A DNA stretch of 33,583 bases, taken from contig PKUV01000160.1 of the NCBI GenBank assembly GCA_003131315.1, positions 26,216 through 59,798 of the forward strand, read 5' to 3'. Under the pieces are notes generated by a model, which was not told where the DNA came from, did no database searches, and saw only the letters and a program-made list of their open reading frames with translations. Positions 12,808-30,776 of the stretch are shown here, piece by piece. The first letter of the stretch is position 1. Each line of letters begins with the position of its first letter. The position numbers and the translations under genes were made by a program. The DNA is from Acidobacteriaceae bacterium (GTDB taxonomy: Bacteria > Acidobacteriota > Terriglobia > Terriglobales > Acidobacteriaceae).

Positions 12808-13626
12808 TCAGCGGAGGTCCACGGTCAGCCGGCAGCGGTCGCCGCGGATGACGCCCCGCGCGTATTCGAGCGGGGTTCCTTCGACGCTATATGCCAGGTG
12901 CTCCCACAGCATCCCCGGGCTCCCGGACCGCACTCTTAACAGCCGCGCGCTGCGCCGGTCCAGGAGAACGGGTTCAAACGTTTCGCAGCAGCGCACGGGT
13001 GCCAAATTATATTCTTGCGCAAGCAGGTCGTAGAGCGCAACGGACTTGTGATCCTGCCGATCGAGCCCGGGATACAACGATTGAGGCAGGTAGGAATTTG
13101 CGAGTAAAAACGGCTCGTCGTTCAGCAGCCTCAAACGCTCGATCCGGGTCACTTTATCGAGCGCCCGGATGCGCAGCGCCGCTGCGACATTGGGATCGGG
13201 CGTTACCACCCCGATGTGAAGATCGTTCCAGGTGGGCTGCATGCCCTGGGCGCGCATCTCCGTGGTGAACCGGTAGAAATGGTCCAGAACCTGGTTGACG
13301 CGGCGTTGAGCAACGTAGGTTCCACGCCCTCTTTGCCGCGCCAGCAACCCTTCGGCTTCCAGGTCGTCCAGCACGCGCTTGGCTGTGATCGTGCTCACGC
13401 CAAACCGCTGGCAAATGGCCTTTTCGGTGGTGAAAAAGTCGCCCGACTTCAGCGCGCCCTCCTGGACTTTGAGGACCAGGATTTCGCGCACTGCCTTCGT
13501 CAATTGCAGAAACAGCGGAACGCCGCTGTGGCGGTCTATTGCCAGCCGCCGCTCTTCGAGTCCGTCGAAAGGAGAATCGGCCCAGCGAGAAGCCGATCCC
13601 GGGATCCCAATGTCGGGATGAGACAT
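12808..13626 (-). CDS. GntR-family regulator with UTRA effector domain
   Basis: HutC/NagR-type repressor. The N-terminal winged helix is at about residues 35-110 (PLFLQLTKAVREIL, TTEKAICQRFGVSTITAKRV, LARQRGRGTYVA), and the UTRA ligand-binding domain is at about 125-270 (ending CRLTVDLR). UTRA regulators usually sense a phosphorylated sugar or another pathway intermediate; NagR senses GlcN6P/GlcNAc6P. It is divergent from the TonB receptor and the sugar genes and so probably controls them and itself. Palindromes of the form ATAT-N2-ATAT lie at both promoters. It has 30 extra N-terminal residues compared with short NagR proteins. Confidence 0.92.
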   Translation of the reverse strand: MSHPDIGIPGSASRWADSPFDGLEERRLAIDRHSGVPLFLQLTKAVREILVLKVQEGALKSGDFFTTEKAICQRFGVSTITAKRVLDDLEAEGLLARQRGRGTYVAQRRVNQVLDHFYRFTTEMRAQGMQPTWNDLHIGVVTPDPNVAAALRIRALDKVTRIERLRLLNDEPFLLANSYLPQSLYPGLDRQDHKSVALYDLLAQEYNLAPVRCCETFEPVLLDRRSARLLRVRSGSPGMLWEHLAYSVEGTPLEYARGVIRGDRCRLTVDLR

Positions 13627-13707
13627 CTAGTAACTCATGCACTTAAGAAACGGAGATAGAACGGACTGAGCTTGGAGCATTGCCCCCAGGCTCCCGAATG
13701 GCCGCCC

Positions 13708-13720
13708 GTGGTCTAGTCTC
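13708..13720. promoter_or_regulatory. NagR-like half-palindrome TGGTCTAG
   Basis: The stretch GTGGTCTAGTCT lies about 85 bp upstream of the GntR start. It resembles the TGGTCTAGACCA-type sites bound by NagR/YvoA regulators, but the second half is imperfect. Weak; may be chance. Confidence 0.25.
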
Positions 13721-13730
13721 CTTCTACGCT

Positions 13731-13759
13731 GATAAATCATTATCATATGTATATGTCAA
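13731..13759 (-). promoter_or_regulatory. Candidate gntR promoter with palindromic operator
   Basis: On the minus strand, TTGACA (13759-13754) is a consensus -35 box, with a TTATCA-like -10 about 18 bases on. The palindrome CATAT-GT-ATATG (13744-13755) overlaps the -35 box, where a repressor would act. A related palindrome lies at the receptor promoter. Confidence 0.5.
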
Positions 13760-13907
13760 GTTATGGAGCAGGAATTTACCTTTTTAGCCCAACCGCAGAC
13801 CCAGTATACACCCTTTCGCGGGGTTTCAGCGCCTTGTTTTTTCGTTTGCCTGAGTTCAGTGGCTAGGGGCAGGGCCGCGACTGTCACAACGCGAATCCCG
13901 AAACCAG

Positions 13908-14235
13908 TGCCCAAGCCGAGGATGCGCTGCAGGCCGAGCGCACTTCCCCCGCTCTTCTGGTTGGTCACGAAGCAGATCGCCTGAAACCAGGTTCGCAACG
14001 GCTTCCGCGTGCCCTCGAGAATCGTCTTTGCCGATCGACGATGTCTTCGGCTGACAGGCTGCGCATCGGGAGCAGGCCCCTTGCCATCATTCAGGCACTC
14101 CCTCCAACCACACACAGGGCACCGGAAGCCGTCCGGCCACCGAAGCCGCCGAAGATAGGTGGCGCAGGACGTCTCCGAAGAGAACCACTTGTCGAACTCC
14201 CGAATCGTCCGCGGGTAATCCACTCCTTCGACCGG
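13908..14235 (-). pseudogene. IS1595-family transposase remnant
   Basis: The minus-strand sequence gives VEGVDYPRTIREFDKWFSS, then a zinc-ribbon half RWPDGFRCPVCGW. In a shifted frame comes CSRCAACQPKTSS (the second CxxC and QTS-type motif), and in the first frame again ILEGTRKPLRTWFQAICFVT followed by NQKSGGSALGLQRILGLG. This is the N-terminal third of an IS1595-family transposase. Two compensating frameshifts and the lost C-terminal DDE domain make it dead. It lies between the divergent regulator and receptor genes. Sequence from about 13760 to 13905 is unrelated and unrecognised. Confidence 0.8.
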
Positions 14236-14266
14236 ATAAGGGCGATCCTGCCTCACCACCACACAT

Positions 14267-14310
14267 CTTGTGGTCAACTTGTGGTCAACAAAACTAAACC
14301 TGTGGTCAGG
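14267..14310. repeat. Three direct copies of TTGTGGTCAA-like motif
   Basis: CTTGTGGTCAA occurs twice back to back (14267-14277, 14278-14289), and CCTGTGGTCAGG follows at 14299-14310, about 45 bp upstream of the receptor -35 box. It could be a regulator binding array or debris of the IS end. The TGGTC core also occurs in the site at 13708. Confidence 0.5.
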
Positions 14311-14333
14311 TAAATAATCGCGAGATTTTCTTC

Positions 14334-14371
14334 TTGACAACGTATATGAATATAACGTATATGAATATACG
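14334..14371 (+). promoter_or_regulatory. Receptor promoter with tandem/palindromic operator
   Basis: A consensus TTGACA -35 box (14334-14339) is followed by two tandem copies of AACGTATATGAATATA at a 15-bp period (14339-14354, 14354-14369). The second forms an exact palindrome, CGTATAT-GA-ATATACG (14356-14371), covering the -10 region (TATATG). The position and the similarity to the palindrome at the gntR promoter suggest GntR binding and repression. Confidence 0.6.
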
Positions 14372-14470
14372 AACAGACAAGCCCTCAAGCGTTCGCTGCC
14401 CGTAACCGGCAAATGGAGTGGTCGCTATCTGTCAGTTCAAGGCGGAAATTTCGTGGTTCGGAGGTGCAAC

Positions 14471-17400
14471 GTGTTCATAGCTAGAGATAATTCTGGGGTG
14501 CGCTGGCAACTGATACGCTTCTGCTTGTTAGTACTGACCTTCACACTTGGATTGATTCCGTGTTACGGCCAGATTGTCAACGCGAGTCTTTTCGGAACTG
14601 TAGCAGATACGTCCGGTGCTGTAGTGCCTGACGCGACCGTTGCTGTGCGAGAGCAGAGCACTAGCTTTACCGCCAAGTCGACCACCGACTCGACAGGAAG
14701 TTACATCCTGCTTTCCCTGCGTCCCGGAGTTTACGACGTGACGGTGGGGAAGGCGGGCTTCAAGACTTCGGTGATTTCTGGAATTGCTCTCCTCGTGGAC
14801 CAAAAAGCGCAGCTTGACCTGCAATTGCAGGTTGGCGACGTGGCGACAAGGGTAGACGTTGTGGGTGTGTCGCCCATAGTGGACACCAGCACGGCGAGTA
14901 TCGGCAGTGTAATTGGCGAAAAAGACGTTACAGACCTTCCCCTAAACTTGCGCCGTTTTGGCGCACTGGCCGTTTTAGTCCCGGGCACGGTCCCGGATAA
15001 CGGCGGATTTGCTTCAGAAGCACTGGGGTCCCCATTTAGCGAAACTACATACTCTGCAGGCGGTTTGCGGTCCACTAGCAACAACTATTTGATCGACGGC
15101 GTGGACTCGAGAGGCATGAACTGGGGAGGATTCCAACTCCAGCCTCCTCCCGACGCGGTCCAAGAATTCAAGATCCAAACCAACGTCTATTCCGCCGCCT
15201 TCGGCAAAACTGCAGGTTCCACCGTTAACCTGGTGACGCGATCGGGCTCGAATGGCTTACATGGAAGCGTCTATGAGTTTCTCCGCAACGATATGCTAGA
15301 TGCGCGCAACTTCTTTGCGACGACGCAACCGAAATACCGCCGGAACCAATACGGCGCCGGTGTAGGTGGGCCGATTCGGAAGAACAAAACCTTCTTTTTC
15401 GTCAACTACGAGGGCTTGCGGCAAGTCCAGGGCAATACCCGGTTAGGTGTGATACCCACTCCCACAGAATTGACTGGGGACCTCAGTAGTTCCCTCACGG
15501 GGCAGACCGTTAATCTTTGCGGCACAGGTGGCCCGGCGAACCTCAACTTCGATAGCGGCCAACTCTTCGCCCCAGCGTCTCTTCAGCAGGTTACCTGTCC
15601 TGTCGGCAGTGCCAACGCGGGTTCCACGATTCTTGTAGGCAATCCCATCCCGGGTAATATCATCACGAATATAGACCCCGTCGCCCAGAAGGTTCTCGCG
15701 TCGTACCCTTCGCCTAACCGGACCGGGGCCGCGAACTTTGTGAACAACATACCCAACACGCGTTTCGACAGCTTGGGCGATGGGCGACTCGACGAAGTGA
15801 TCGGGCCCAAGGACCAGTTGTTCGCGCGTTACCTTTTTGGCCAGTCCAGCATCGTGCAACCGGGCCCAACAGCTGTTCCGGGCTTTCAAGACACCATTTA
15901 TTTTCGAGGTCAGAATTTTGCTCTGGGCTGGACGCACACCTTCGGTCCCCACCTTCTGAGTGAAGCCCGGTTCGGTTATCAGCGCGATTATGATATTCTC
16001 AACTGCGCTAGTTGTCCCCGCACACCAGGGTTCATGGCATCGTTTGGAATCAATGGACTGCAGGCCGCTGCCCCAAGCACAGAAGCTTACCCCCTGTTTG
16101 AATTTACTAACTACTCGTATATTGGGGATAATGACTATCGCCCCACCATCAATCCCGACACGGTTGAGAAGTACCAGGAAAATCTCACTTGGACGCGTGG
16201 ACGACACACCGTGGTCGTAGGGGTTGACCTAGAACCAGTACAGTTTCTCCATCAGCAGTCGCAGAACGGCACCCACGGCACAGTTACCTATAACGGTCAG
16301 TTTTCTGGCTTGGCAGGCGAACTCCCGGGAGTGGCCACAGTCAGCGACTTGGCTGACTTTCTGCAGGGGTATCCTTCGAATGCGGTGCGTAATTTCCGCT
16401 TCCAACCCGTCAACGATGTGGGAGGAGGCTTCTTTAATTTCTACGGTCAGGATGATATCCAAGTCCGGCGGAACATTAGCGTGAACCTCGGTCTTCGGTG
16501 GGAATATCGTCGCCAATGGGTGGATAATAACAACAACATCGTGACGTTCGTCCCTACGGGTCCGAAATTCTCGGGGTCGGGCAATGCCATACTTGTTACG
16601 GCCGCGGACAATAGCCTGAACGACTCGTTTTGTACCAATCCCGCCTATTCTTACCTGATTAGTGCCTCTGGCCAGTGCTTGGTGGCCTCTTCAGCCCGAC
16701 GCGCACAGCTTGGGTTCACAGGTAGAACGGGGAGGACACTAGTTTTCCCAAATTATAAGGACTTCGCCCCACGCCTAGGCATAAGCTGGAGGCCGACCAG
16801 TTCCGACAAGCTAATTATCCGAACGGGGTTTGGGATTTTCTATGACTTGGGAAATCACACTACGGAAGACTTCGTGGGGCAGAACCCAATCTTCTCGCCC
16901 GACGAGAACTACAGCACCGCGTTTGGTGTTCCCCCGCCACTTACCAATGGTGTTCCGACAACCGTAGAGAACGTTTTTGGCAGCGGCGCAGCAATTCCTA
17001 ACTTGAGTGCACTCCTTGGATATTACGGTGTCGATCCACACATGAAATCTCCGATGATCAAAGAGTATAGTTTTGGCATCGAGTCTCAATTGGCTAAGAA
17101 TTTAGGCCTCGAGGTGGGCTACGTTGGCAACAAGGGAACGCGCCTCTCTAACCTGCACCTATTTGGTAACCAACCTAACCCCGGGCTGGGCCCGCTTCAG
17201 CCGCGCCGTCCTTATCCCGATTTCGGGCTTATTGCTAATGCCACTGGTGATGCCATCTCCAACTACAACTCTTTGCAGGTGAAGCTGACCCAGCGACTTT
17301 CGGCTGGCGTTTCCTTCCTGGTCGCCTACACATTCGCCAAATCGTTGGATGACGCTGAAGGTGATGAAGGGTTCGTAGGTGGAGTCGGCAACGTCAATGC

Positions 17401-18001
17401 GCAAGATGACAACAACGTAAGAGCTAGCTATGGGCGCTCTTACAACGACGTGCGTCACCGGCTGGTCGCCAGCTACACTTGGGATTTGCCGGTCGGAAAG
17501 GGCAAGCGCTTCCTTAACCAGAGCGGCTTCGTAGATGCTGCGTTGGGAGGCTGGGAAATCTCGGGTATCACAAGTTGGCAATCCGGATACCCATTCACGG
17601 TGACCATTGGGAACGATTATCCTAACACAGGGTCGCTTGTCGAGACGCCCGACCGGTTGTGCAACGGTACCGGGCGGAAAACGATTAGCGACTGGTTTAA
17701 TCTAAGCTGCTTCACCGTAGCGCCTTTGCAGGCTGCTTTGGCCGCTGGGAATCCCCGCTTTGGCAATTCTGGCCGAAACATCCTCGATGCCCCGGGATTC
17801 TACGATTGGGACCTAAATTTCTCAAAACACTTCAAGCTCAACGAGCATTTCCAACTAGAATTCCGCGGAGAGATGTACAACGCTTTCAACCACCCAAATT
17901 TCGGAAATCCGTCGGCGAACATTCAAGCCAGCACTGCAGGGCAAATCTTAAGTGCGGCGACGCCAAGGGACATTCAGTTTGGGCTCAAGCTGTTGTTCTA
18001 G
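14471..18001 (+). CDS. Oar-type TonB-dependent receptor with carboxypeptidase-regulatory-like domain
   Basis: Outer-membrane transporter expected to bind and import a large or scarce substrate using TonB energy. A signal peptide (about residues 12-34, ending CYGQ) is followed by a carboxypeptidase-regulatory-like beta-sandwich (VADTSGAVVPDATVAV... GSYILLSLRPGVYDVTV), a plug domain (about 120-250, with YLIDGVDSRG), and a long beta-barrel ending in the outer-membrane signature LKLLF. The 1176-residue length and absence of a SusD partner are typical of acidobacterial receptors. GTG 14471 is chosen because GGAGGT lies just before it; the frame opens at GTG 14453. The gene opens the sugar locus and is divergent from the GntR regulator, so it is probably induced by the substrate. 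Its GC content looks lower than that of mrdA. Confidence 0.92.
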   Translation: MFIARDNSGVRWQLIRFCLLVLTFTLGLIPCYGQIVNASLFGTVADTSGAVVPDATVAVREQSTSFTAKSTTDSTGSYILLSLRPGVYDVTVGKAGFKTSVISGIALLVDQKAQLDLQLQVGDVATRVDVVGVSPIVDTSTASIGSVIGEKDVTDLPLNLRRFGALAVLVPGTVPDNGGFASEALGSPFSETTYSAGGLRSTSNNYLIDGVDSRGMNWGGFQLQPPPDAVQEFKIQTNVYSAAFGKTAGSTVNLVTRSGSNGLHGSVYEFLRNDMLDARNFFATTQPKYRRNQYGAGVGGPIRKNKTFFFVNYEGLRQVQGNTRLGVIPTPTELTGDLSSSLTGQTVNLCGTGGPANLNFDSGQLFAPASLQQVTCPVGSANAGSTILVGNPIPGNIITNIDPVAQKVLASYPSPNRTGAANFVNNIPNTRFDSLGDGRLDEVIGPKDQLFARYLFGQSSIVQPGPTAVPGFQDTIYFRGQNFALGWTHTFGPHLLSEARFGYQRDYDILNCASCPRTPGFMASFGINGLQAAAPSTEAYPLFEFTNYSYIGDNDYRPTINPDTVEKYQENLTWTRGRHTVVVGVDLEPVQFLHQQSQNGTHGTVTYNGQFSGLAGELPGVATVSDLADFLQGYPSNAVRNFRFQPVNDVGGGFFNFYGQDDIQVRRNISVNLGLRWEYRRQWVDNNNNIVTFVPTGPKFSGSGNAILVTAADNSLNDSFCTNPAYSYLISASGQCLVASSARRAQLGFTGRTGRTLVFPNYKDFAPRLGISWRPTSSDKLIIRTGFGIFYDLGNHTTEDFVGQNPIFSPDENYSTAFGVPPPLTNGVPTTVENVFGSGAAIPNLSALLGYYGVDPHMKSPMIKEYSFGIESQLAKNLGLEVGYVGNKGTRLSNLHLFGNQPNPGLGPLQPRRPYPDFGLIANATGDAISNYNSLQVKLTQRLSAGVSFLVAYTFAKSLDDAEGDEGFVGGVGNVNAQDDNNVRASYGRSYNDVRHRLVASYTWDLPVGKGKRFLNQSGFVDAALGGWEISGITSWQSGYPFTVTIGNDYPNTGSLVETPDRLCNGTGRKTISDWFNLSCFTVAPLQAALAAGNPRFGNSGRNILDAPGFYDWDLNFSKHFKLNEHFQLEFRGEMYNAFNHPNFGNPSANIQASTAGQILSAATPRDIQFGLKLLF

Positions 18002-18459
18002 TGGTGTGGCCTTGAAGGCGTGAGGAAATGCAGCCCGCAGCTGCGAAAATCAGGAGTACGGTAGTTTTCCCGGGACCTGAGCAGGTGGCCGATTCAACGA
18101 GTACCTGCTCCAAATGCCCCGGCAGGATCTGTCCTCCGAGTCGGGAACGATCCTGATCACATTGACTGAGGGCTCTCAAACCCACGTCGGGGAGTTTTCG
18201 ACGTGGCCAGAACAGGAACCATTGGAGCGCGTTCCGAGCATTCTGGACGACGCGTGCGAACGACCACACCGGTGGACGCACGAGCGCGACATCGAACTTG
18301 TAAACATGGGTGATCCTCATAAAGGCTGCGGCTGTCTCAACTTGCAACAGGTGTTCCGGTCGTACTGCGAACTTAAGTGACCATCAATATGCATTTCTGG
18401 CATCGTCTTTGGAGAGCCCTACGCTGGCGGCGGAATATTCTCGTGGGGGTTTGGACTCG
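18002..18459. other. Unassigned gap after the receptor gene
   Basis: Open frames exist on both strands (88 codons plus at 18114-18380; 120 codons minus at 17985-18347), but neither resembles a known family and they overlap each other. A hairpin with 8-bp arms GAGCAGGT/ACCTGCTC (18079-18086, 18103-18110) may help end the receptor transcript, without a T-run. Otherwise nothing is seen. Confidence 0.4.
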
Positions 18460-19422
18460 ATGAACGAAATTCGTTGTGCTGCTGTAATTGGTGCCGGCCT
18501 CATGGGGCACGGCATTGCACAATTGTTTGCGCAAGCCCAGATTCCTGTTTACCTCACAGATAGCCAACCCGAAAGCCTGGAAGCCGGCCTTCGCCATGTC
18601 GCCACGAACCTCAAGAAACTCGTCTCCCACGGGTTCCTCAAGGAGCATGAGGCAGATGAAATTCACTCGCGGGTCATGCCCGTGAGCACCATCCAAGAGG
18701 CTGTTAAGGATGCCGACTTCGTTACGGAGTGCGTCACTGAGGATTTAGCATTAAAGCAGAATCTCTTTGAGGAGCTTGAGGAGCTTTCGCCCCCATGGGC
18801 GATTCTTGCTTCGAACACGTCCTCGCTTATCTTGTCCGAAATAGGAGCAAGGGTTAAACAGAAGTCTCGGATGATTGTCACTCATTATTTCAACCCGCCG
18901 CACATCATTCCGACGGTGGAGATCGTACCGAGTGACTTCACTGATCCGGCCGTCACCGAAACCACACGAGGGCTGATCACTCGGATGGGGAAGTTTCCCA
19001 TCTGCTTGAAGAAGGCCCTTCCGGGATTCCTAGTCAACCGCGTTCAAGCGGCCATAGTCCGTGAAGTTTTATCGATCCTGGAGGATGATTTCACCACTGC
19101 CGAAGAGATGGATCAAGCTCTCAGAGGATCGATCGGCTTCCGAATGGCCGCCGTGGGACCGCTGGAGGTAATGGATTTCGGTGGGCTTGACACTTGGTTG
19201 GAACTTACCTCGAATCTACTGCCCACATTGAATAATCGGACGGATCCGCCGGCAATTCTGGTCGAGAAAGTCACGCGGGGCGACCTCGGTGTCAAATCGG
19301 GCAGGGGCTTTTACGATTGGGGTGGAGGATATACTTCCTCCACGTTCGCAGAAAGAGCCCGCACGCGCGATGACACCTTCTTGGATATGCTCAGGACTTT
19401 GTACGCCAAGTCATCATTGTAG
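18460..19422 (+). CDS. 3-hydroxyacyl-CoA / L-gulonate dehydrogenase family protein
   Basis: NAD-dependent 3-hydroxy-acid dehydrogenase of the HADH/lambda-crystallin family. The N-terminal Rossmann domain has GAGLMGHGIA. The central motif ILASNTSSLILSEI and HYFNPPHIIPTVEIV carry the usual Ser and His of the active site, and the C-terminal helical domain starts around GFLVNRVQAAIVREV. At 320 aa it has a single dehydrogenase unit with no hydratase. In fatty-acid oxidation it would be FadB-like; in this sugar locus L-gulonate 3-dehydrogenase or a similar sugar-acid role is more plausible. Start ATG 18460 is set by the homologous N-terminus; the frame remains open upstream to 18310 without family similarity. 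The ribosome site (GGGGG) is weak. Confidence 0.85.
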   Translation: MNEIRCAAVIGAGLMGHGIAQLFAQAQIPVYLTDSQPESLEAGLRHVATNLKKLVSHGFLKEHEADEIHSRVMPVSTIQEAVKDADFVTECVTEDLALKQNLFEELEELSPPWAILASNTSSLILSEIGARVKQKSRMIVTHYFNPPHIIPTVEIVPSDFTDPAVTETTRGLITRMGKFPICLKKALPGFLVNRVQAAIVREVLSILEDDFTTAEEMDQALRGSIGFRMAAVGPLEVMDFGGLDTWLELTSNLLPTLNNRTDPPAILVEKVTRGDLGVKSGRGFYDWGGGYTSSTFAERARTRDDTFLDMLRTLYAKSSL

Positions 19423-19487: not shown

Positions 19488-19706
19488 ATGGTTCGGACCC
19501 ATGAGGTAAAGGACCTGCGAATTGAGTTCTCGAACGCGAACTATCCGGCGGGCGAATACCAGGTAACTGATATCCCTGCCGCAACCGGATTAAGAGGAAC
19601 AACGTATAATGGAAGAACTAATGGAGGAACCAGTGGACATCAAAGAAGAACTAATGGAGGACTTAGTGGAAGTCAAAGCAAAAGAATATCTCGACCGATT
19701 GCGTGA
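19488..19706 (+). CDS. Possible small protein or leader before the SIS gene
   Basis: A 72-codon frame starting at an ATG with a strong ribosome site (GGGAGGAGAG). Residues 1-35 (KDLRIEFSNANYPAGEYQVT) look protein-like, but the end becomes Gly/Thr/Asn-rich where it runs into the tandem repeat of the next gene in another frame. It may be the remnant of a gene start, a translated leader, or chance. No family recognised. Confidence 0.2.
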   Translation: MVRTHEVKDLRIEFSNANYPAGEYQVTDIPAATGLRGTTYNGRTNGGTSGHQRRTNGGLSGSQSKRISRPIA

Positions 19707-21450: not shown

Positions 21451-21476
21451 TGCAGTTGAGTTTTAGTGGAGGGGGC

Positions 21477-24400
21477 ATGGAACGCAGGACAGCTCTTAGA
21501 ATTCTCGCTCTCGGCGCACTTATGCCAAAGGTTCCCGCCCTAATGGTGGCCAAGAGTCCAATGCAAACAAAGACTACATCGAACACCAAGGTTGTCTCGA
21601 AGAACACCGGCGTTCTAGCGACCATTCGACTCTATAACCCAACCCAGTGGACTTATCAAACCTTTGTTGAAGTCCCCGCAGGGCAGTTGGCGGCGCCAGG
21701 ACTCATTGACTGGCGGAAGGTCCGCTTGGTTTGCGATGGGCGAGACGTATCTTTTTCGCTGCGGGAGGGGCGAGCGCACTGGAGGGCCAGCTTAGTGCCC
21801 GTCACGGACCCTCGTGCTGAGGACTTGGTCGTTTTCACTATCAATGTTCCTCCCGGCACTTGGTCACAAGTCGATGTAGTGAGCGGCCAGCGGAACGAGA
21901 AGAGTGCGCTTACTCGGGCGGACGGTCAGCTGGTGGTGTCATACCCAAATCTCAAAGTGGTTATTAATCAACTGACAGCGATGTTGGTCCAAGTTAAGGC
22001 TTTTTCTGCGGAACTACTTGCCACACCGATGAGTGCAGATGGTTTTCAGGTAGAGGAGGGAGTCATTGAGCACTCGGAGGCCTCTGCCCTTGGCTTCGAA
22101 CGGCTCTTGACTTACTCTCATCAAAGAGTAAGGCTCAAGAAAGACCTGCCCATAAGTTCATTCCAGGCCAAGCTCGTGTCCTCCTTCTCGGATCCTGCAT
22201 TGACCGAGCTGAACTTCATTCTAGAACATGCGAAAGCTCCAGCCATGGCTCTCACCTACCGGGTGCATACCGGCGGGCTAGTAGAGATTTTGGCAGATGA
22301 GCGACCTTGGGAAGGCGCGTCACCATGGCTGAATTACGGAGTCGAGTACAGACTTAGCCTGAAGTGCGAAGGGCAGCCAGTGCCCGATTTCGAAACCCAA
22401 TTTCCATTTTTCGGATTCCAGGACTATGACGCGGTGGTAAAAAACACCGGAACACTGCATCGGACGGAAAACCTTGCAGTGCTTGAAGTCGGAGAAGAAT
22501 CGATCAACGGGCGCCGCTGGCATCGACGCTTATACATTGCGGGCCAAAATCAACTGACACATATACACGACATGTTTCAGGTTGTCGACAAGGGGTTGGT
22601 TGTCGATGTCATACCCGCATCTCTTCGTTTAGATAGGGGTCCCATCCAGGTTTCATATCCCGATGGCTGCAAGACTATAGCTGAGACCTTAGTGCAAGCG
22701 CTCGGCAAAGCTGGCATCCGGGCGGAATCTGTGTCCGGACCCGGAAACCGTCAAGTCAGTGCGATTATTTTAAAGCGCCTTGAACGGCCTGAAGAAGCCG
22801 GCCTGGAAGGAGACGGGTTTGCGATCCTCCCGCTCCAGGATGGAAACGGCGCATCTATCGTCTCGGGAACACAATTCGGGCTGATGCACGGAACACTGAA
22901 GCTCGCCGAGCAGGTTCTCAGAAACCAAGGCGCAGTGTCGGTCCCCTTGATGGCCAGCAACCCAGGTAGTGGCCTACGGGCCGGGGGCTTCGGAGGAGGA
23001 ACCCACGAAGTAGATTTTCCATACGGAAACGACGCCGAGTGGATTAAGGTTTTCGACGATCTGGTCGCCTCCGGAATGAACACAATGATTTGCATGGGCA
23101 TGTGGGGTAACTGGAAAATGCCCGTGACCTATAAGTACATGCCGGAGCTCAGATCTGATTCACCCGACGCTTATGACGAAATCTCGGGAGCCAAGTTCTC
23201 GGAATACGAATCATCCCGCGAGCAAGCTCTGAAGCTCTTGAATTACTTGCACGAGCGCGGAGTGAAAGTTTGGCTGGAGATACCCGTGGGAGCTATCCCC
23301 ACGACTTTTGCCGGCAAGTTTCCCGATGCCGTCCTACCCGGGAACCCGAAAGTTCCTCTCGTTTTGCATCCAAAATACCAACAGTATCTGCAGGCATTCT
23401 TCAAGGAACTTCTGGAGACGTATCCCATCGAGGGATTCATGATGGTTCGGGATGACAACGGCGGCATGGATACCAGCGAGGAGTTTACGAAACATGTCGC
23501 GGTCTCGCACACCAAAAATCCGGCGTGGGAGCAGGAACTGCTGATCTACGACATGCTGCGATCCACTGGTTTCCGAGGCGATATTGCCATTTATCCGTAT
23601 CGGGATCTTTATGAACCTCAACTCGAGTCCGCTCTGCCCAAAGACCTTTTCATTGTCGGACACGGCAGTGGTTTCGGACCTCTGAGCCGCAGCTACAAGA
23701 CGCTAGGCCTTATGCCCGACACCTGGCTGGACAATATCTATGCAGGTTTTCGCCTGCCTCCGACGTCGAGAATGAAGCGGCTGATCTCCGATCGAGGAAT
23801 CCTCTGGGTCGGCGGAGCCTTTCGTGGCACTGAACTGCCCTGGGAATCACTCGGCACTTTTACCTGGCAACCCGCTACCACGGTCAACACGCTGCGTAGC
23901 GATTGGGGTTCTCGGGCATTCGGAAAGAAAAATGGAGTTCCCTTTCTCCGATTCAGCGATGCCTACGAGCAGTTATGGAATCTCATGAATGGTCCCCTGT
24001 TGCCGTATACCTGGCTCGAAATGACTTCCCCAATGAAACAGCAAGTCGAGCAAGAGAGCGATGCAGGTCTAAAACTCTACCAGGACCGGCTTGCGGACCT
24101 CCTCTCCACGGCGGGCAACGCAGATAACAAGGATTGGTTCGTTCAAGCCAAACTGTATGGGCCCTTTTTCGAATACTGCCTGCGCCGGCTGAAATTGTTC
24201 GACCAGCTTTACGAGATTGTGCTGCCGTACAAAGATGCCCTCGAGACGTCCAAACCCCTGCCGGCTGACATCCGCCACCGTGTGACTTCCGTTTATCGCG
24301 AACTGCTTGAGACCGCTGTACCGTATGCGAACGCGATCAAGAAGGTGCCGGGCGGAATGATGCGCGCAACTGAGCCGTCGGCTCATCCTTACCGCGAGTG

Positions 24401-24785
24401 GCATCAGGGCGGCTACGGTCAAGCGCTCGATAAAATGCTAAAGCTGCCAGAATTTGGCGGCACATTGAACGTATCTCACCAAGAGCTCAAAGCCGGAGGG
24501 CCCTTCACGATCACGATTGAACTCCAAAACAACGGGATCTGTCCTTGGGTGCCAAGGGAAGGTCAAAAACTTGAGCTTGACCCGCCCGCAAAGCTTTTGG
24601 GCCTCCCCCTTTCATGGGATTTAAACGGAGAATGGGTCCTTCCCGGAGACCTCCGAGTGGTGAATCTGTCTGGGACCGCGCCGGAGGAACCGGGCACGAC
24701 AAAGATTGGGATGAAGTTCTGGTCCCCCGCAGGCCCGCTGACGTTCCCGTTTATTGATCGCGAACTTCTGCTGAAATGGGAATAA
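21477..24785 (+). CDS. Large exported glycoside hydrolase-like protein with Ig-like tail
   Basis: Predicted periplasmic or secreted enzyme of 1102 aa acting on the locus substrate. A Tat-like leader (MERRTALRILALGAL) is followed by an N-terminal beta-rich region (about 40-380). A GH20b/GH67N-type alpha/beta domain comes next (about 385-480, GFAILPLQDGNGASIVSGTQ), and a probable (beta/alpha)8 barrel begins near residue 520. In the barrel, EGFMMVRDDNGGMD (Asp659, Asp660) and VWLEIPVG are candidate catalytic strands. The last about 110 residues resemble an NBR1-type Ig domain (NNGICPWVP... VLPGD... APEEPGT). The two-domain layout recalls alpha-glucuronidases and beta-hexosaminidases, but I cannot place it in a named GH family. 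The ATG at 21477 has GGAGGGGG before it. Confidence 0.75.
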   Translation: MERRTALRILALGALMPKVPALMVAKSPMQTKTTSNTKVVSKNTGVLATIRLYNPTQWTYQTFVEVPAGQLAAPGLIDWRKVRLVCDGRDVSFSLREGRAHWRASLVPVTDPRAEDLVVFTINVPPGTWSQVDVVSGQRNEKSALTRADGQLVVSYPNLKVVINQLTAMLVQVKAFSAELLATPMSADGFQVEEGVIEHSEASALGFERLLTYSHQRVRLKKDLPISSFQAKLVSSFSDPALTELNFILEHAKAPAMALTYRVHTGGLVEILADERPWEGASPWLNYGVEYRLSLKCEGQPVPDFETQFPFFGFQDYDAVVKNTGTLHRTENLAVLEVGEESINGRRWHRRLYIAGQNQLTHIHDMFQVVDKGLVVDVIPASLRLDRGPIQVSYPDGCKTIAETLVQALGKAGIRAESVSGPGNRQVSAIILKRLERPEEAGLEGDGFAILPLQDGNGASIVSGTQFGLMHGTLKLAEQVLRNQGAVSVPLMASNPGSGLRAGGFGGGTHEVDFPYGNDAEWIKVFDDLVASGMNTMICMGMWGNWKMPVTYKYMPELRSDSPDAYDEISGAKFSEYESSREQALKLLNYLHERGVKVWLEIPVGAIPTTFAGKFPDAVLPGNPKVPLVLHPKYQQYLQAFFKELLETYPIEGFMMVRDDNGGMDTSEEFTKHVAVSHTKNPAWEQELLIYDMLRSTGFRGDIAIYPYRDLYEPQLESALPKDLFIVGHGSGFGPLSRSYKTLGLMPDTWLDNIYAGFRLPPTSRMKRLISDRGILWVGGAFRGTELPWESLGTFTWQPATTVNTLRSDWGSRAFGKKNGVPFLRFSDAYEQLWNLMNGPLLPYTWLEMTSPMKQQVEQESDAGLKLYQDRLADLLSTAGNADNKDWFVQAKLYGPFFEYCLRRLKLFDQLYEIVLPYKDALETSKPLPADIRHRVTSVYRELLETAVPYANAIKKVPGGMMRATEPSAHPYREWHQGGYGQALDKMLKLPEFGGTLNVSHQELKAGGPFTITIELQNNGICPWVPREGQKLELDPPAKLLGLPLSWDLNGEWVLPGDLRVVNLSGTAPEEPGTTKIGMKFWSPAGPLTFPFIDRELLLKWE

Positions 24786-24810: not shown

Positions 24811-25628
24811 ATGAGTGCACGGCTGAAAGACAAAGTAGCGATCATAACTGGTGCCGGCTCAAGCGGCCCTGGATGGGGCAACGGCAAAGCGACAGCCGTC
24901 TTGTATGCGCGCGAGGGCGCGAAAGTGTTTGCCGTGGACATCCGTCAAGAGGCTGCGGACGAAACCGTAGCCATTATTAAAGGTGAGGGTGGAGAAGCGG
25001 GAAGCTTTGCCGCCGACGTCTCCAAGTCCGCGGAGGTTAGAGCACTGGTCGAAAGGTGTCATAAGATTTTTGGACGTGTCGATGTCCTGCACAACAACGT
25101 TGGAGTTCTGGCGGTGGGTGGACCAGAAGAACTCTCCGAAGAAATTTGGGATCGCCATATGGCGATCAATGTAAAAGGTGTGTTTCTCGCGTGCAAGTAC
25201 GCCTTGCCGATCATGGTGCAACAGGGACAAGGGGCGATCGTCAATACCTCCTCAATTGCGTCCATCCGATATACAGGCTATCCCTCCGCGGTCTACCGCG
25301 TCCAAAGGCGCGGTGAACCAACTGACCCAAAACATCGCCGTGCAGTATGCCCGCAAGGGTATACGCGCCAACTGCGTGCTCCCGGGATTGATGAACACTC
25401 CCATGATTCGAGAGCCACTGAAGGATACGTATGGTGCAGGCGGCGTAGACGAAATGATCCATCGACCGGATGCGCAGGGCCGATGGGGAGGATGGGCGAT
25501 GCGTAGGACGTCGCCTATGCGTCACTATTTCTGGCGTCCGACGACTCGAAGTGAAGTGGAGCGTAGGCGAAAACCTCTGTACGCACAGGCAGCGCTGGTC
25601 TGGAGCCCCACTGGGGGCAGTTTCCCGA
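24811..25628 (+). pseudogene. SDR-family oxidoreductase, frameshifted
   Basis: Classical short-chain dehydrogenase, normally an NAD(P)-dependent sugar or alcohol oxidoreductase. The first frame gives the cofactor motif (ITGAGSSGPGWGNGKA), NNVG, and NTSSIASIRYTGYPSAVY. Between the Tyr (25294-25296) and the Lys of the YxxxK motif the frame shifts, and continues as ASKGAVNQLTQNIAVQYARK to about 25460. It then returns to the first frame (MGRMGDA), meets TAG at 25504 where Trp is expected, and goes on as DVAYASLFLASDDSK before another stop. The final VDGG segment is scrambled. At least two indels and one nonsense change: a pseudogene, or a low-quality assembly patch. A good ribosome site (GGGAG) precedes the ATG. 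Confidence 0.85.
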
Positions 25629-27398
25629 ATGCGTGACGAAAAAGCTGACTACAACCATTTTCTTCTTTTAGTAGCGGGGCTCGGCGGCCTGCTATACGGG
25701 GTGGACGTCGGCATCATTGCTGGGGCCTTACCCTACTTGGAGGCTACTTCCGGCTTGAACGCAGGCCAGCTTTCTATCGTTGTCGCGGCCGTGCTCCTCG
25801 GGAGCGTGATCTCATGCATCTTCGCGGGCGCGCTAGCGGACTGGATTGGGCGGAAGCCTTTGATGACGGTCAGCGGCGTGCTGTTTGTCATCAGCATTCC
25901 AGTCATTGCTCTCTCGCACGACTATCAACTATTGGTTCTTGGCCGGGTGCTACAGGGCATCAGCGCTGGCTTGATCGGTGTGGTTGTCCCGCTGTACTTG
26001 GCGGAGTGTTTGGCGGCATCGAATCGAGGCAAAGGCACGGGCATTTTCCAGTGGCTGTTAACCCTTGGGATCGTGACGGCCGCCATTGTCGGCATGTTTT
26101 TCAGTCTTCGCGTTGAACAGGTGGCTAGGCTCGGCGATCCTGCGGCGCTCTTCGCCTTCAAAGATGCGACCTGGCGCCATATTTTCTGGGTTTCGCTGCC
26201 ACCCGGCATACTGTTTGTGGTCGGAAGTCTTATGGTGACGGAATCGCCGCGCTGGCTGTTTCGCCGTGGCGAAAGGGCTGCAGCCTACGCCGCGCTTCTC
26301 CGCTCTCGCACAACCCAGCAGGCAGACTACGAGCTTGAGGAAATGGAACAAGCGGCTGCCGCTGAGAAACACAAAACCTCAAACGGAGCCAGGCTCAGGG
26401 AATCACTTTGGCAGCGCAAATACGTGGTTCCGTTTGTGCTGGCCTGTGTAATTCTCGTATGTAACCAGGCCACCGGCGTCAACTCCATCATCGGCTACAA
26501 CATCGACATCCTTTTCCAGAGTGGTCTCTCCGATCTTCAAGCTCACTGGGGCTATGTAATTTTCACGATGGTGAACTTTCTGATGACAATTGGCGGCGTC
26601 CTGCTGGTGGATCGCAAGGGGCGCAAGTTCCTGTTGTCGGTGGGCGCCGCGGGCATTATCGTGTCGCTCCTATGCACCGGCCTGCTGTTCCGCCGGACGG
26701 AAAGGCTGCGCGCGGATTCCCGGGCCACCGTTCAATCCATGGTTAGTGCGAACCAAAAGGTCACGCTTCTTTACGACCAGAATTCTGCCGATAAGCTTCT
26801 TTCCGCGGACGGGGATGCTGGCAAGGCCATCAGTCATCAGCCCACCTCGCTGATCGTGATCTATTCGTGCGGAGATTTCCACGCCGCAAGCAAGGTCGTG
26901 CGTTCCGACGACAATTCGGCAGGGCCCATTGAGATCACGCGCGAAAGTTGCCTGCCTGCAAATAAAGTGGTGGCGTTCTTCTCGAATCCATTCGGCAATC
27001 TCGATCGGTCGCGCCAGACTCCGCTAAGAATTGACAATGCCTTGAGTACCCTTGTGCCCAGTGAGGAGAATGGCTGGTTAGTAGCTACCAGCCTTTTCCT
27101 GTTTATGGCATTTTTCGCCATCGGTCCCGGCGTGTGCGTGTGGTTGGCACTTTCGGAGTTGATGCCGACTCGGATTCGCTCCAACGGTATGAGCATAGCG
27201 GTGTTGATGAACCAGGTGGTCTCAACGGCCATCGCCGCCATTTTCCTGCCGACCGTCGGCAAGTATGGCTATTCCATCATGTTTTTTGGCTTCGCTGGCG
27301 GCGCCGTGATCTACCTCATTACCGCCGTGTGGTTCTTGCCGGAAACGAAGGGTAAGACTTTGGAGGAAATCGAAGCGCATTTTGGCGGCACACAATGA
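25629..27398 (+). CDS. MFS sugar porter with a large extracytoplasmic loop
   Basis: Inner-membrane sugar symporter of the sugar-porter family. All signatures are present: GGLLYGVDVGIIAGALPYL in TM1, DWIGRKP, ESPRWLFRRGE, NQATGVNSIIGYN in TM7, DRKGRKFLL, and PETKGKTLEEIEAHF at the C-terminus. It should import the mono- or disaccharide released outside. Unusual: about 120 residues (356-478) lie between TM9 (GIIVSLLCTGLLF) and TM10 (WLVATSLFLFMAFFAIG), where the family normally has a short periplasmic loop. The insert has two Cys and looks like a small soluble domain. ATG 25629 gives the family N-terminus; the frame also opens upstream into the broken SDR. There is no strong ribosome site, so it may have been coupled to the SDR gene. 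Confidence 0.9.
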   Translation: MRDEKADYNHFLLLVAGLGGLLYGVDVGIIAGALPYLEATSGLNAGQLSIVVAAVLLGSVISCIFAGALADWIGRKPLMTVSGVLFVISIPVIALSHDYQLLVLGRVLQGISAGLIGVVVPLYLAECLAASNRGKGTGIFQWLLTLGIVTAAIVGMFFSLRVEQVARLGDPAALFAFKDATWRHIFWVSLPPGILFVVGSLMVTESPRWLFRRGERAAAYAALLRSRTTQQADYELEEMEQAAAAEKHKTSNGARLRESLWQRKYVVPFVLACVILVCNQATGVNSIIGYNIDILFQSGLSDLQAHWGYVIFTMVNFLMTIGGVLLVDRKGRKFLLSVGAAGIIVSLLCTGLLFRRTERLRADSRATVQSMVSANQKVTLLYDQNSADKLLSADGDAGKAISHQPTSLIVIYSCGDFHAASKVVRSDDNSAGPIEITRESCLPANKVVAFFSNPFGNLDRSRQTPLRIDNALSTLVPSEENGWLVATSLFLFMAFFAIGPGVCVWLALSELMPTRIRSNGMSIAVLMNQVVSTAIAAIFLPTVGKYGYSIMFFGFAGGAVIYLITAVWFLPETKGKTLEEIEAHFGGTQ

Positions 27399-27472
27399 GC
27401 GCCCGCCGCAGGGATTTGTCGTTCGGATTACGAACGCCGGTTGAGTAAACAATTTCTTTGGAGAGTGACGTT

Positions 27473-28429
27473 ATGACTGATAAATCTTCTAACGCGTGGG
27501 CAGCGAACTACCGGTCGTGGCTGGATTACGTGGCGGATGTGGTGCGGACCTACGAGAGCGGAAAGGATATTCCGATCGGGCCTAGCCCCGAGCCTCTGGC
27601 GTTGCCCGCTGATTCGGCACCGCCGGCGAAAGGTTTCAAAGTGGTGATTTGCGCTCCGCACCCCGACGACGAAACTCTGAGCGGGGCACTGCCCCTGCGC
27701 TGGCGCCTGGAGGCCGGCGCGCAGGTCACCGACTGCGCCATAACCCTGGGCAGCGACCACGGGCAGCGCGAGCGGCGCCGCCGCGAACTGGCATCGGCTT
27801 GCCGCGTTCTCGGATTCGAGATGGCGATTCTACCAACTGCCCAGGGAGCGACCGGCCTCGATGACGTCAATCCCGCCTCGCACCGGCAGCATCCCAAAGC
27901 CTGGGCGGAGAAGGTGAACACCCTGGCGGAATTTTTCGATCAGGCCCAGCCGGACGTGGTTCAGGCGCCCCACGCCGAGGATTTCAACACCACCCACCTC
28001 GGGACGCGCGAACTCGTGGTCGAGGCGCTGGGGATGCATTTGGAGCACCGCGGCGGCGGAGCCTCGCTCCCGCTGATCGAGTCGGAATCCTGGCACCAAC
28101 TGGCTGCGCCCAATCTAATGCTGGCGTTGACGCCGGAGGTGGTGGCCTTGCAATTAATGGCGGCAGCGGAACACGGCGGAGAAATGGTTCGAAACCCTTA
28201 CCACCTCCGCCATTGCCCGCGCCTGATGCATAACGTCCAGCGAGGCTCGGAAGTGGTCCTGGGGCAAGGAGGGCCAGCCCTGCCGTATGTTTTCGCTGAG
28301 CTTTATCGCGTCACCTTTATGCGAGGCCGTGAGTTCCTTGAGCCGCGTCCCGGCGGTTGCATCGTGGCGCCACGCGAGCATTTCGGGCTCGAGGAACTGA
28401 TGACCCAATTTGGGCCGCAAGGAAACTAG
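27473..28429 (+). CDS. PIG-L/LmbE-family deacetylase
   Basis: Zinc-dependent N-deacetylase of the LmbE fold, members of which deacetylate GlcNAc-containing substrates (GlcNAc-PI, MshB, BshB, chito-oligosaccharides). The zinc motif is APHPDDETLSG, and the distal His lies in APHAEDFNTTHLGTRELV. Length 318 aa is at the long end, with about 50 extra N-terminal residues. The start ATG 27473 has GGAGAG seven bases upstream. The preceding gene is the sugar porter, 74 bp away. In this locus it would remove an acetyl group from an N-acetylated sugar after uptake; there is no signal peptide, so a cytoplasmic role is inferred. Confidence 0.9.
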   Translation: MTDKSSNAWAANYRSWLDYVADVVRTYESGKDIPIGPSPEPLALPADSAPPAKGFKVVICAPHPDDETLSGALPLRWRLEAGAQVTDCAITLGSDHGQRERRRRELASACRVLGFEMAILPTAQGATGLDDVNPASHRQHPKAWAEKVNTLAEFFDQAQPDVVQAPHAEDFNTTHLGTRELVVEALGMHLEHRGGGASLPLIESESWHQLAAPNLMLALTPEVVALQLMAAAEHGGEMVRNPYHLRHCPRLMHNVQRGSEVVLGQGGPALPYVFAELYRVTFMRGREFLEPRPGGCIVAPREHFGLEELMTQFGPQGN

Positions 28430-28655
28430 GCCGCAAGACAAGATGCGATCAGCGAGAATCACAGATCCTGGACATCGATTTCTGCGCTGAGACGGGCTAG
28501 AATGATTAAATTGACGGGTTACCAGCCTCAAGGTGTTCAATGGCGCTACCCGCAATTGGTGACCTGTCTCTGACGGCGTGCCCACTGAGATTTAAATCGG
28601 TAGTTTCGTTCGCGGCGATTCACGTTGCGGCTGCAGGACGCCTCGAAACCGTTCT

Positions 28656-30776
28656 ATGGATCTGAGTTTTAAAATGAAGCAGTGGGCATGCATCTCGGCG
28701 GTCGCTATCTTGAGCCCACTTCTCGCCTGGGCCGGGCATACCTCTCCGGTTACTCCGCAGAAGGCTCCCCCGATCATTTTGATTTCCATTGACACCTTGC
28801 GCGCCGACCACCTGAGTTGCTATGGCTACCGTCGCGTTGAAACTCCTCACCTTTGTGCACTAACGAAAGGGGGCACATTATTCTCTGCAGTTAGTTCTCA
28901 GGTGCCTCTCACCTTCCCTTCCCATGTGTCCCTGTTTACTTCCACCTATCCGTTCGCCAATGGCATCGAGGACAACGGTGAAGTTCTCCCGCCCCATGCT
29001 GTAACGCTTGCCACCGTCTTGAAAGCGCATGGCTACCGCACCGGTGCAGTGGTTGGTGGTTTTGCAATGGACCGCCGGTTCGGACTGAACCAGGGTTTCG
29101 ACGAGTACGACAGCACCTTCGATCTGCATCGCGAAAAGGAACCCGATTCGGGAGACGTAAAACGTCTGGGTGCCGACGTGGTCGCAGCCGCGAGCCAGTG
29201 GCTCGACCCAAACTCCAACCCCTCGTTCTTTCTCTTCCTTCATCTTTACGACCTGCACACCCCCTACAACCTTCCGGCAACTTACAGCGCGCGCTTCGGC
29301 ACGGGATACGACGCTGAACTCCGCTATGTGGACGAACAGGTGGGCGTCTTCTGCGATTATCTGCGGCAGCACAATCTTCTCGATCGGAGCCTCGTCATTC
29401 TCACCTCCGACCACGGTGAGAGCTTGGGCGACCACGGAGAGACAACGCACGGCTACTTCATCTATCAAAGCACCCTTTGGGTGCCGCTGATCGTGCACTG
29501 GCCGGCGGGCAGCGCAAGCTTCCCTGCGAAGATCGCCGAACCGGCCAGCCTGATGGACCTTGCTCCGACTATCCTGCACTTCGCCGGCATTTCCCCGCCG
29601 CCGGAGTTTAAGGGGCGCAGTTTAATGGAATCGTTGCGTTCGGGCGCGTCGAAAACGGCGCGAGACGTTTACAGCGAAAGTCTTTACGCCCACAACCACT
29701 TCGGATGTAGTCCGTTGCGCAGCCTGCGCTCAGGCCGATACAAGTACATCCAGGCCCCAAAACCCGAACTCTACGATCTGGCCACTGACCCGGGTGAGAC
29801 GCGGAATCTCTACGCGCAGAAACGCTCGCTGGCGCTGGCCTGGCAGGAGAAACTGGCATCCCTGCATCCGGAGCTTCGAAACGAACATCCCGCGGGGAAA
29901 AAGGCGCTCGATCCGCACACCGTCGCTCTCCTGAATTCTCTGGGATATGTCGCGGGAGCCTCCGAACACTCGGAATCACCCGATGGCGAGGCTGATCCCA
30001 AAGACCGCATTGGAGAATTTGAGAACTTTGGACGCGCTATCGTCCTCGCCTCCACCGGCCATATCGACGAATCGAGTGCTCTCCTCGAGCGGCTACTCAC
30101 CGTGCTTCCGGAAATCATCGATCTGCGTATGAGTCTGGGATTGAACGATCAGCGGCTGCGGCGGAATTCCGAGGCGGCTCGTGAGTTCCAGCAGGTTCTC
30201 AAGACGGATCCCCAGAACGTGCGAGCGCATTTTAACCTGGCGCTAAGCCTTTTTGAGATGAGGAAACTGGACGAAGCCACGCGAGAATTGCAGACCGTTC
30301 TCACGAACGCTCCTTATTACACGCGCGCCGAGGATCTGTTGGGCACCATCGCGCTCCAGCAGGACGATTACGGCCGGGCCCGCGAGCGGTTTGAGCACGT
30401 TCTGACCATCGATCCGCACGACTACATCGCGCATTACAATCTGGGGGCACTGGGGGCGCTCCAAGGGCAATGGGACACAGGCGAGCAGCACCTTCGAGCT
30501 GCCCTGAGCCTCGGTCCCCTCGATCCCCAGGCTCATAACACTCTGGGAAGCCTCTACCTCCGGAAGGGTGATCTCGACAAGGCGGAGGTGGAATTCCGCG
30601 AAGCGCTTCGTCTCCAACCGAAGTCAGTCTCCACGCATTACAATCTTGGACTGGTCCTCCGCAAGCAAAACAGAGAGGCTGACGCCGCCGATGAATTTCG
30701 CCAGGCGTTGGCTATCGACCCGCAGTTTCGCCCGGCGCGCGACGCACTGAGCGGCTTGGCGACGACACCGAATTGA
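28656..30776 (+). CDS. Sulfatase-like hydrolase fused to TPR repeats
   Basis: Alkaline-phosphatase-superfamily enzyme. The signal peptide is MKQWACISAVAILSPLLAWA. The catalytic domain spans about residues 35-400, with metal ligands in ISIDTLRADHLSCYGY and TSDHGESLGDHGE. The C-terminal third (about 450-700) has six or so TPRs (NVRAHFNLALSLFEMRKLDE, YIAHYNLGALGALQGQWDTG). The nucleophile segment reads QVPLTFPSHVSLFTS: Thr stands where sulfatases have the Cys/Ser that becomes formylglycine (CxPxR). So this is more likely a phosphatase, phosphodiesterase or phosphotransferase than a true sulfatase. The start is ATG 28656 or 28674; neither has a clear ribosome site. Its link to the sugar locus is by position only. 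Confidence 0.88.
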   Translation: MDLSFKMKQWACISAVAILSPLLAWAGHTSPVTPQKAPPIILISIDTLRADHLSCYGYRRVETPHLCALTKGGTLFSAVSSQVPLTFPSHVSLFTSTYPFANGIEDNGEVLPPHAVTLATVLKAHGYRTGAVVGGFAMDRRFGLNQGFDEYDSTFDLHREKEPDSGDVKRLGADVVAAASQWLDPNSNPSFFLFLHLYDLHTPYNLPATYSARFGTGYDAELRYVDEQVGVFCDYLRQHNLLDRSLVILTSDHGESLGDHGETTHGYFIYQSTLWVPLIVHWPAGSASFPAKIAEPASLMDLAPTILHFAGISPPPEFKGRSLMESLRSGASKTARDVYSESLYAHNHFGCSPLRSLRSGRYKYIQAPKPELYDLATDPGETRNLYAQKRSLALAWQEKLASLHPELRNEHPAGKKALDPHTVALLNSLGYVAGASEHSESPDGEADPKDRIGEFENFGRAIVLASTGHIDESSALLERLLTVLPEIIDLRMSLGLNDQRLRRNSEAAREFQQVLKTDPQNVRAHFNLALSLFEMRKLDEATRELQTVLTNAPYYTRAEDLLGTIALQQDDYGRARERFEHVLTIDPHDYIAHYNLGALGALQGQWDTGEQHLRAALSLGPLDPQAHNTLGSLYLRKGDLDKAEVEFREALRLQPKSVSTHYNLGLVLRKQNREADAADEFRQALAIDPQFRPARDALSGLATTPN

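Follow-up and report, generated by a model that had tools for sequence, protein, structure and literature searches.

Which sugar would be served by a set of catabolic genes with a sugar kinase, transporters and a SIS-family sugar-phosphate protein but no deacetylase-deaminase pair of the NagA/NagB type, and how did its host come by it? The question is raised by positions 12808-30776 of a 33,583-nucleotide stretch of DNA from an Acidobacteriaceae bacterium (the window, by which we mean the whole stretch; positions 26216-59798 of contig C125, host genome of 6.0 Mb in 194 contigs). The best single account is that the locus is a mosaic, was acquired horizontally and serves in the use of a glycoside or oligosaccharide that contains an N-acetyl-hexosamine, a reading that we put forward tentatively and with a little less than even confidence. 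The evidence comes from the SIS protein, from the neighbourhoods of its relatives, from a protein of 1102 amino acids (aa) that belongs to no family, and from the genomic island on which the genes lie. The genes concerned are as follows, with family calls from Pfam/NCBIfam.

12808-13626, minus strand: GntR/UTRA regulator (Pfam/NCBIfam).
13756-14412, minus strand: remnant of an IS1595-type transposase in the gap between regulator and receptor (Pfam/NCBIfam).
14453-18001, plus strand: large Oar-type TonB-dependent outer-membrane receptor (OMP_b-brl_4, 776.7 bits).
18460-19422, plus strand: 3HCDH-type NAD dehydrogenase with a HYFNPP...VE motif (Pfam/NCBIfam).
19609-20406, plus strand: SIS protein of the UPF0309/PRK02947 type, NagS clade (NF002805, 260 bits, cut-off 135).
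20426-21298, plus strand: ROK sugar kinase with DIGG, TD and CRCDRPYC motifs (Pfam).
21477-24785, plus strand: orphan protein of 1102 aa with a twin-arginine translocation (Tat)-like RRxxL start, without any family.
24811-25636, plus strand: SDR pseudogene (alignment to best homologue).
25629-27398, plus strand: MFS sugar porter (Pfam).
27473-28429, plus strand: PIG-L deacetylase-type protein (Pfam; HPDDE and HAEDFNTTH motifs).
31240-32424, minus strand, opposite to the locus: Gfo/Idh/MocA oxidoreductase (Pfam).

An earlier note, written from the letters of this DNA, had placed a GntR/UTRA regulator, a TonB receptor, a UPF0309 SIS protein, a ROK kinase, a sugar porter and a PIG-L protein together, and the family calls bear this out. 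Its statement that the locus lacks SusD, NagA and NagB also holds, as none of these families was matched among the 20 open reading frames (ORFs) of the window scanned against Pfam, and the hydrolase that it could not classify is indeed without a Pfam family. Its NAD-dependent dehydrogenases stand in part: the 3HCDH-type gene is intact, whereas the plus-strand SDR gene beginning at 24811 is disrupted, its alignment to the best homologue (L143) being split over two frames and interrupted by an in-frame stop. Receptors of the OMP_b-brl_4 kind are typical of acidobacteria. In the ROK kinase, we take DIGG, the Asp of TD and the zinc-type CRCDRPYC to be the functional motifs.

Two relatives of the SIS protein have solved structures, 3cvj and the UPF0309 protein SCO4393. 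According to PMC12680351, SCO4393 is NagS, the Streptomyces N-acetylglucosamine (GlcNAc)-6-phosphate dehydratase (PDB 9eol, 9f7o and 9f7v), which also acts on ManNAc-6P and showed no significant binding of GlcN-6P or GalNAc-6P in isothermal titration calorimetry; its catalytic residues are H53, R64, E94 and D179, its Ser91 contacts the substrate and costs 40-fold in activity when replaced with alanine, and its activity is described there as confined to Streptomycetaceae, with a role as part of a toxicity checkpoint. A tree of 50 SIS proteins (38 relatives, 9 plasmid proteins, NagS, 3cvj and the window protein) contained one split, of 15 versus 35 proteins, with a Shimodaira-Hasegawa-like support of 0.991 in FastTree and an ultrafast bootstrap (UFBoot) of 99. 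The 15-member clade, clade I, contains the window protein, NagS and SIS genes from nag operons, and also takes in four relatives' loci with a BadF-type kinase (L042, L043, L046 and L050); within it, the exact sister of the window protein has a support of only 0.435 and 65. The window protein is 36% identical to NagS and keeps 10 of 11 NagS pocket positions (H53, S54, R64, A65, E94, S119, S121, D179, G227 and N228), including all four for which inactive alanine variants are reported in PMC12680351. By this pocket score it ranks joint first with L042 among 39 sequences, and the Planococcus plasmid protein has 11 of 11.

Nine of the 41 plasmid records were examined. The five clade-I members (Planococcus, Rhizobium, Devosia, Microvirga and Ponticoccus) have nagA/nagB-like neighbours, with the orders nagE-nagA-nagB-GntR-SIS in Planococcus, GntR-SIS-nagA-SIS in Rhizobium and NagB-SIS-amidohydrolase in Devosia; the four of clade II are from Spirosoma, Persicobacter and Haliscomenobacter (with an SDR gene, and ROK in two) and from Agrobacterium (with another sugar kinase). 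Amino-sugar use, as the earlier note had it, is thus supported by the clade of the SIS protein, by its pocket residues and by the clade-I SIS genes that both Bacillota and Pseudomonadota have in their nag operons.

The neighbourhoods of the SIS genes show that this type of locus recurs. We used 38 of the 42 SIS matches outside the window, leaving out four partial ones, and compared them with 18 of 20 GH67 (glycoside hydrolase family 67) control loci, leaving out two on contigs shorter than 3.5 kb, and with 11 housekeeping or own-flank loci; many of the compared loci are cut short by the end of the contig, several belong to genomes that are related, and the SIS and control loci themselves served in iterating the family profiles. 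A sugar kinase lies near 25 of the 38 SIS genes (21 ROK and 4 BadF) and in 4 of the 18 GH67 loci. ROK genes, taken separately, were found in 4/18 GH67 loci and in none of the 11 housekeeping or own-flank loci, and BadF genes in neither control set. The same absence from all 18 and all 11 controls was seen for GH42-like genes (16/38 SIS loci), GntR/UTRA regulators (14/38) and PIG-L genes (8/38); receptors were counted in 17/38, 4/18 and 1/11. Fisher p values for SIS versus GH67 loci, uncorrected and ignoring kinship, were 0.001 for GH42, 0.002 for GntR, 0.024 for ROK, 0.044 for PIG-L and 0.14 for the receptor; SDR (11/38 versus 5/18) and Gfo/Idh genes (8/38 versus 4/18) were not enriched, with p values of 1.0. 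Part of the gene set therefore occurs together more often than chance would give. In the window, the SIS and ROK genes are likewise nearly adjacent and in the same direction, the ATG of the kinase lying 19 bases 3' of the SIS gene. The co-occurrence elsewhere that the earlier note had called for was found for kinase, GntR and SIS genes, whereas the hydrolase itself was found nowhere else in the searches described below. We conclude that the locus is a mosaic, partly decayed version of an already known type of sugar locus.

The slot of the GH42-like enzyme is filled in the window by the orphan 1102-aa protein. It matched no Pfam family at E 0.01 or at E 10, and nothing in NCBIfam or PADLOC. Searches of 200 genomes (the host and 199 others), of a 396-genome sample of the phylum (host included, overlapping the first sample) and of plasmids gave no full relative, nor did four scans of viral contigs; two motif scans of genome contigs likewise returned no full relative, although relatives that do not conserve the chosen motifs escape such scans. 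The better of two weak sequence matches in the PDB was 5e9a (E 0.023), which we take to be a GH42 beta-galactosidase. Profile comparisons gave a GH42 profile a probability of 43.2% (whole protein) to 58.8% (core) over residues 521-619 and a GH20 profile of 24 sequences 33.9-48.4% over residues 581-727; 14 other profile sets reached at most 6.4%. Compared directly, the GH20 and GH42 profiles reach only 0.5%, so that each match adds evidence for a barrel that is for the most part separate from the other. The phylum search at E 10 gave weak partial matches in 46 other genomes, the best at 9.9e-4, and 19 of these loci were inspected. Among them, L083 is a GH20 protein (Pfam, 190.6 bits) that matched orphan residues 581-676 at E 0.027 with 28% identity over 103 columns; the RDDNGG of the orphan (residue 659 in the 1103-aa reading) falls at the Asp-Glu motif, the position of the catalytic pair of GH20 hexosaminidases. 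Adding L083 to the GH20 profile raised the probability to 68.5-78.6%, a figure that is circular because L083 was itself found with the orphan as query. GH20 enzymes are hexosaminidases, and the GH20-like signal therefore agrees with an amino-sugar substrate. Taken from its sequence, the orphan is probably a divergent TIM-barrel glycosidase. The host genome has two further GH20 matches elsewhere.

Other candidates for the orphan were rejected. Eight of the 19 inspected loci resemble tryptophanyl-tRNA synthetases, among them the best partial match, L073, which is tRNA-synt_1b by Pfam; L074 is a DUF885 protein. A GH67-like fold, initially expected, reached a profile probability of only 0.2%, and GH163 at most 1.4%. 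Near the C terminus, residues 1005-1070 (in the 21474-24785 reading) align with a stretch of L079 that gives N_BRCA1_IG (NBR1-type Ig) 23.8 bits, under the cut-off of 28.

How the host acquired these genes is indicated by the left part of the window and by the far side of the contig.

7667-7756, plus strand: tRNA-Ser(GGA), left attachment site of the island (tRNA prediction).
7801-9087, minus strand: tyrosine recombinase (integrase) adjoining tRNA-Ser (Phage_integrase, 77.7 bits).
9940-12155, plus strand: type IV secretion remnant with a truncated VirB4-type ATPase (CagE_TrbE_VirB on 10647-12155).

The final 23 bases of tRNA-Ser recur as an exact copy at positions 115129-115151 of contig C125, outside the window, where no tRNA gene was found. 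The segment so delimited spans about 81.2 kb and has a G+C content of 55.5%, against 59.5% in the left flank and 56.9% in the right. In a relative of the same genus, G004 (L249), the tRNA is joined directly to sequence that resembles the far repeat together with the roughly 190 bases that follow it (69% identity in 220 columns), and this is an empty integration site. Among the 14 relatives' loci compared, some of which stop at contig ends, only L249 matches the right flank over more than 36 bases; two others (L256 and L260) carry DNA resembling the integrase region of the window 3' of the tRNA, and L254 has a 52-base match. An integrase adjoins the tRNA, the 3' end of the tRNA is repeated directly over 23 bp, and one relative has the site unoccupied; the catabolic genes are therefore most likely horizontally acquired cargo of a tRNA-integrated island. 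Two small ORFs 5' of the VirB4-type ATPase resemble what we take to be VirB2 and VirB3, and the remaining island, judged by its ORF starts, is presumably rich in amidohydrolase, RidA-like and hydantoinase-like genes.

The scheme that we infer, in its reactions, step order and substrate alike, would run as follows. The TonB receptor would carry the substrate into the periplasm, where the orphan hydrolase, exported by the Tat route and acting as a divergent TIM-barrel glycosidase, would cut it; the sugar porter would take up the released sugar and the ROK kinase phosphorylate it. The NagS-clade SIS protein would then open the ring of the N-acetylated 6-phosphate and act near C1-C3, by dehydration or by a rearrangement akin to it, and its product, or GlcNAc-6P in parallel, would pass to NagA and to a GlmS-like protein, possibly a deaminase, whose gene lies on contig C190. 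The PIG-L protein would be an add-on that deacylates a side product or a glycoside.

Several observations weigh against this reading. In PMC12680351, three NagS homologues (26-36% identity) were inactive or nearly so, and the 36% identity of the window protein falls under the minimum of 58.7% given there among NagS proteins of Streptomycetaceae. NagS Ser91 is missing in the window protein (gap or Gly), and the catalytic residues H53, R64, E94 and D179 are not discriminating, as they are present in all 39 aligned sequences (window and 38 relatives). Among the relatives, ROK and GntR genes are absent from every clade-I SIS locus, clade II (35 proteins) holding all 21 ROK, all 14 GntR and all 16 GH42 loci; the window, in which a clade-I SIS gene stands with both ROK and GntR, is therefore chimeric. 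The sequence of the ROK kinase, whose top PDB match is a glucokinase, gives no reading of its specificity. The assignment of the orphan as a hydrolase depends on partial, weak signals: the blastp alignment with L083 sets the GH20 Asp-Glu against Asp-Asn, not two acids, and two structures predicted from the single sequence were of low quality (mean pLDDT 34.9 and 38.9). A Foldseek search with the second, low-confidence model gave a best E of 7.3e-3 and nothing at E ≤0.001. Finally, the locus may be in decay, given its dead SDR gene. With clade and pocket on one side and the inactive homologues, Ser91 and the universal residues on the other, there is reasonable support for the prediction that the SIS protein acts on an amino-sugar 6-phosphate, and dehydratase activity is only a lead.

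The strongest rival, unlikely but to be taken seriously, is that catabolic genes from different sources, partly inactivated, have piled up opportunistically on the island without a coherent joint function. It owes this standing to the SDR pseudogene, the IS1595 remnant between regulator and receptor and the mixed ancestry of the genes, and a truncated conjugation gene fits it as well. The nearest relatives in the fetched loci are scattered: the GntR regulator is 50-59% identical to those of six clade-II SIS loci (59% to L047), the porter shares 63% identity with a protein encoded next to a clade-I SIS gene in G136, another relative (L043), and the PIG-L protein is 50-55% identical to relatives in varied contexts. 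The nearest relatives of these three are all from family f5 but at different loci; the SDR has a 52% relative in f9 and the intact dehydrogenase has relatives in 11 genomes at 37-47% identity (47% in f1, 46% in f9), most other 3HCDH matches being at about 35%. Elsewhere, moreover, ROK/GntR and SIS genes of the window type belong to different types of locus. Against a mere pile stand the near-adjacent, co-directional SIS and ROK genes, a pairing of kinase and SIS that recurs in relatives, and the long, uninterrupted ORFs of the SIS, ROK, hydrolase, porter and PIG-L genes.

Decidedly less probable is a locus for glycosides of uronates or other sugar acids, in which the 3HCDH-type enzyme, the former SDR and the Gfo/Idh protein would oxidize a non-amino sugar and the SIS protein would be its isomerase. 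The dehydrogenase motif reads as that of the free-hydroxy-acid subtype, and the 46% relative of this enzyme in L143 is accompanied by the SDR that is 52% identical to the broken one, among neighbours that presumably include HpcH-like aldolases; but the clade and pocket of the SIS protein favour N-acetyl-hexosamine 6-phosphates, the SDR partner is dead and the Gfo/Idh gene lies on the other strand.

The PIG-L gene and the nag genes elsewhere in the host also bear on the amino-sugar reading, which we continue to prefer. PIG-L matches at E 1e-10 occur in 7 of the 200 genomes including the host, and no SIS, ROK, BadF or GntR gene was found within the stretches fetched around the other six, all from family f5; a core role of PIG-L in the locus is doubted for this reason. 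The contexts of these relatives vary: a TonB receptor adjoins in L229 and L231, and ORFs near L233 presumably encode LacI, Gfo/Idh and sugar-isomerase proteins, so the relatives cannot be placed outside sugar metabolism. Nag-type genes at another site, for which the earlier note had allowed, exist in so far as a nagA gene (314 bits, cut-off 225.65) adjoins a 375-aa GlmS-like double-SIS gene on contig C190 (L239, 8229-10616). The 375-aa protein corresponds to the isomerase portion of GlmS, lacks the glutaminase portion and scores 414.9 for the GlmS subfamily (cut-off 381), 120.8 for NagB-II (cut-off 430) and 90 for GlmD (cut-off 580); it is a possible deaminase because it has no glutaminase portion and lies next to nagA.

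Very unlikely is the route of the earlier note, in which PIG-L would deacetylate the free amino sugar in place of NagA, the ROK kinase phosphorylate it and the SIS protein deaminate or isomerize it in place of NagB: PIG-L, kinase and SIS genes do occur together in the window and in 6 of the 38 relatives' SIS loci, and PIG-L has its motifs, but the PIG-L proteins there are no near relatives of that of the window (no blastp match at 1e-3), calorimetry found no significant binding of GlcN-6P to NagS (PMC12680351), clade-I SIS genes stand beside nagB in Planococcus and Devosia, and the host has NagA. The key sugar-phosphate enzyme is probably not of the kind guessed there.

The preferred reading differs from each of the known systems that it resembles. 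The window SIS protein shares with NagS its subfamily, clade and pocket but lacks Ser91, and its gene lies beside a kinase and transporters, whereas that of NagS lies beside dmdR1. The nag operon of the Planococcus lenghuensis plasmid has a GntR-type regulator and a clade-I SIS gene, as does the window, but uses a phosphotransferase system where the window has a ROK kinase and an MFS porter, and it includes the nagA and nagB that the window locus lacks; the same absence sets the locus apart from nagA/nagB-type GlcNAc operons in general, in which deacetylase and deaminase are encoded together. Loci of the type GntR-SIS(clade II)-GH42-ROK-PIG-L-TonB (L045, L047, L126 and others) match its functional slots but differ in SIS clade, in a PIG-L unmatched by blastp and in having GH42 where the window has the orphan, which aligns with GH42 and GH20 profiles over part of its length and has no Pfam match. 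Bacteroidota-type polysaccharide utilization loci have a SusC/SusD pair, and the window has no SusD. Judged by listing, a literature search on PIG-L/ROK/SIS or an acidobacterial locus turned up only NagS, sialic acid, agaS and unrelated subjects. The comparison turns the UPF0309 protein from an "unknown isomerase" into a testable prediction and the orphan into a candidate for a new glycosidase family. The NagS pocket is mostly kept in a clade with nag-operon members in two phyla, although the activity published in PMC12680351 is from Streptomycetaceae only. That both hold, the orphan founding a new, distantly GH20-like family for an N-acetyl-hexosamine glycoside and the locus using NagS-type dehydration catabolically outside Streptomycetaceae, we consider improbable.

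Further observations concern the SIS loci. NagS-clade SIS genes lie inside or beside nagA/nagB-type genes in Bacillota and Alphaproteobacteria (L243, L162, L240, L241 and L163). In L042, L043, L046, L050, L163, L240 and L241, a clade-I SIS gene is accompanied by a gene resembling that of neutral ceramidase and by genes for an amidohydrolase or a BadF kinase; the substrate of the ceramidase-like protein may be an N-acyl sugar. Clade-II SIS and GH42-like genes form a recurrent locus (L045, L047, L049, L126, L127, L129, L131, L132 and L134), mostly with GntR/UTRA and ROK and sometimes with a TonB receptor or PIG-L gene.

A search for an operator common to the GntR regulators found none, and promoter and terminator counts were close to those in shuffled sequence. 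One more gene follows PIG-L.

28656-30776, plus strand: sulfatase-fold protein with a TPR tail (Pfam).

Given the 226-bp gap before it, this gene is perhaps a separate unit. C/S-x-P-x-R, which we take to be the usual sulfatase motif, occurs only at residues 351 and 505, and the N-terminal region reads PLTFPSH; the protein may therefore not be a sulfatase, as the motif is not near its N terminus. On the right side of the locus, ORFs at 32455-32966 presumably derive from an IS3-type transposase.

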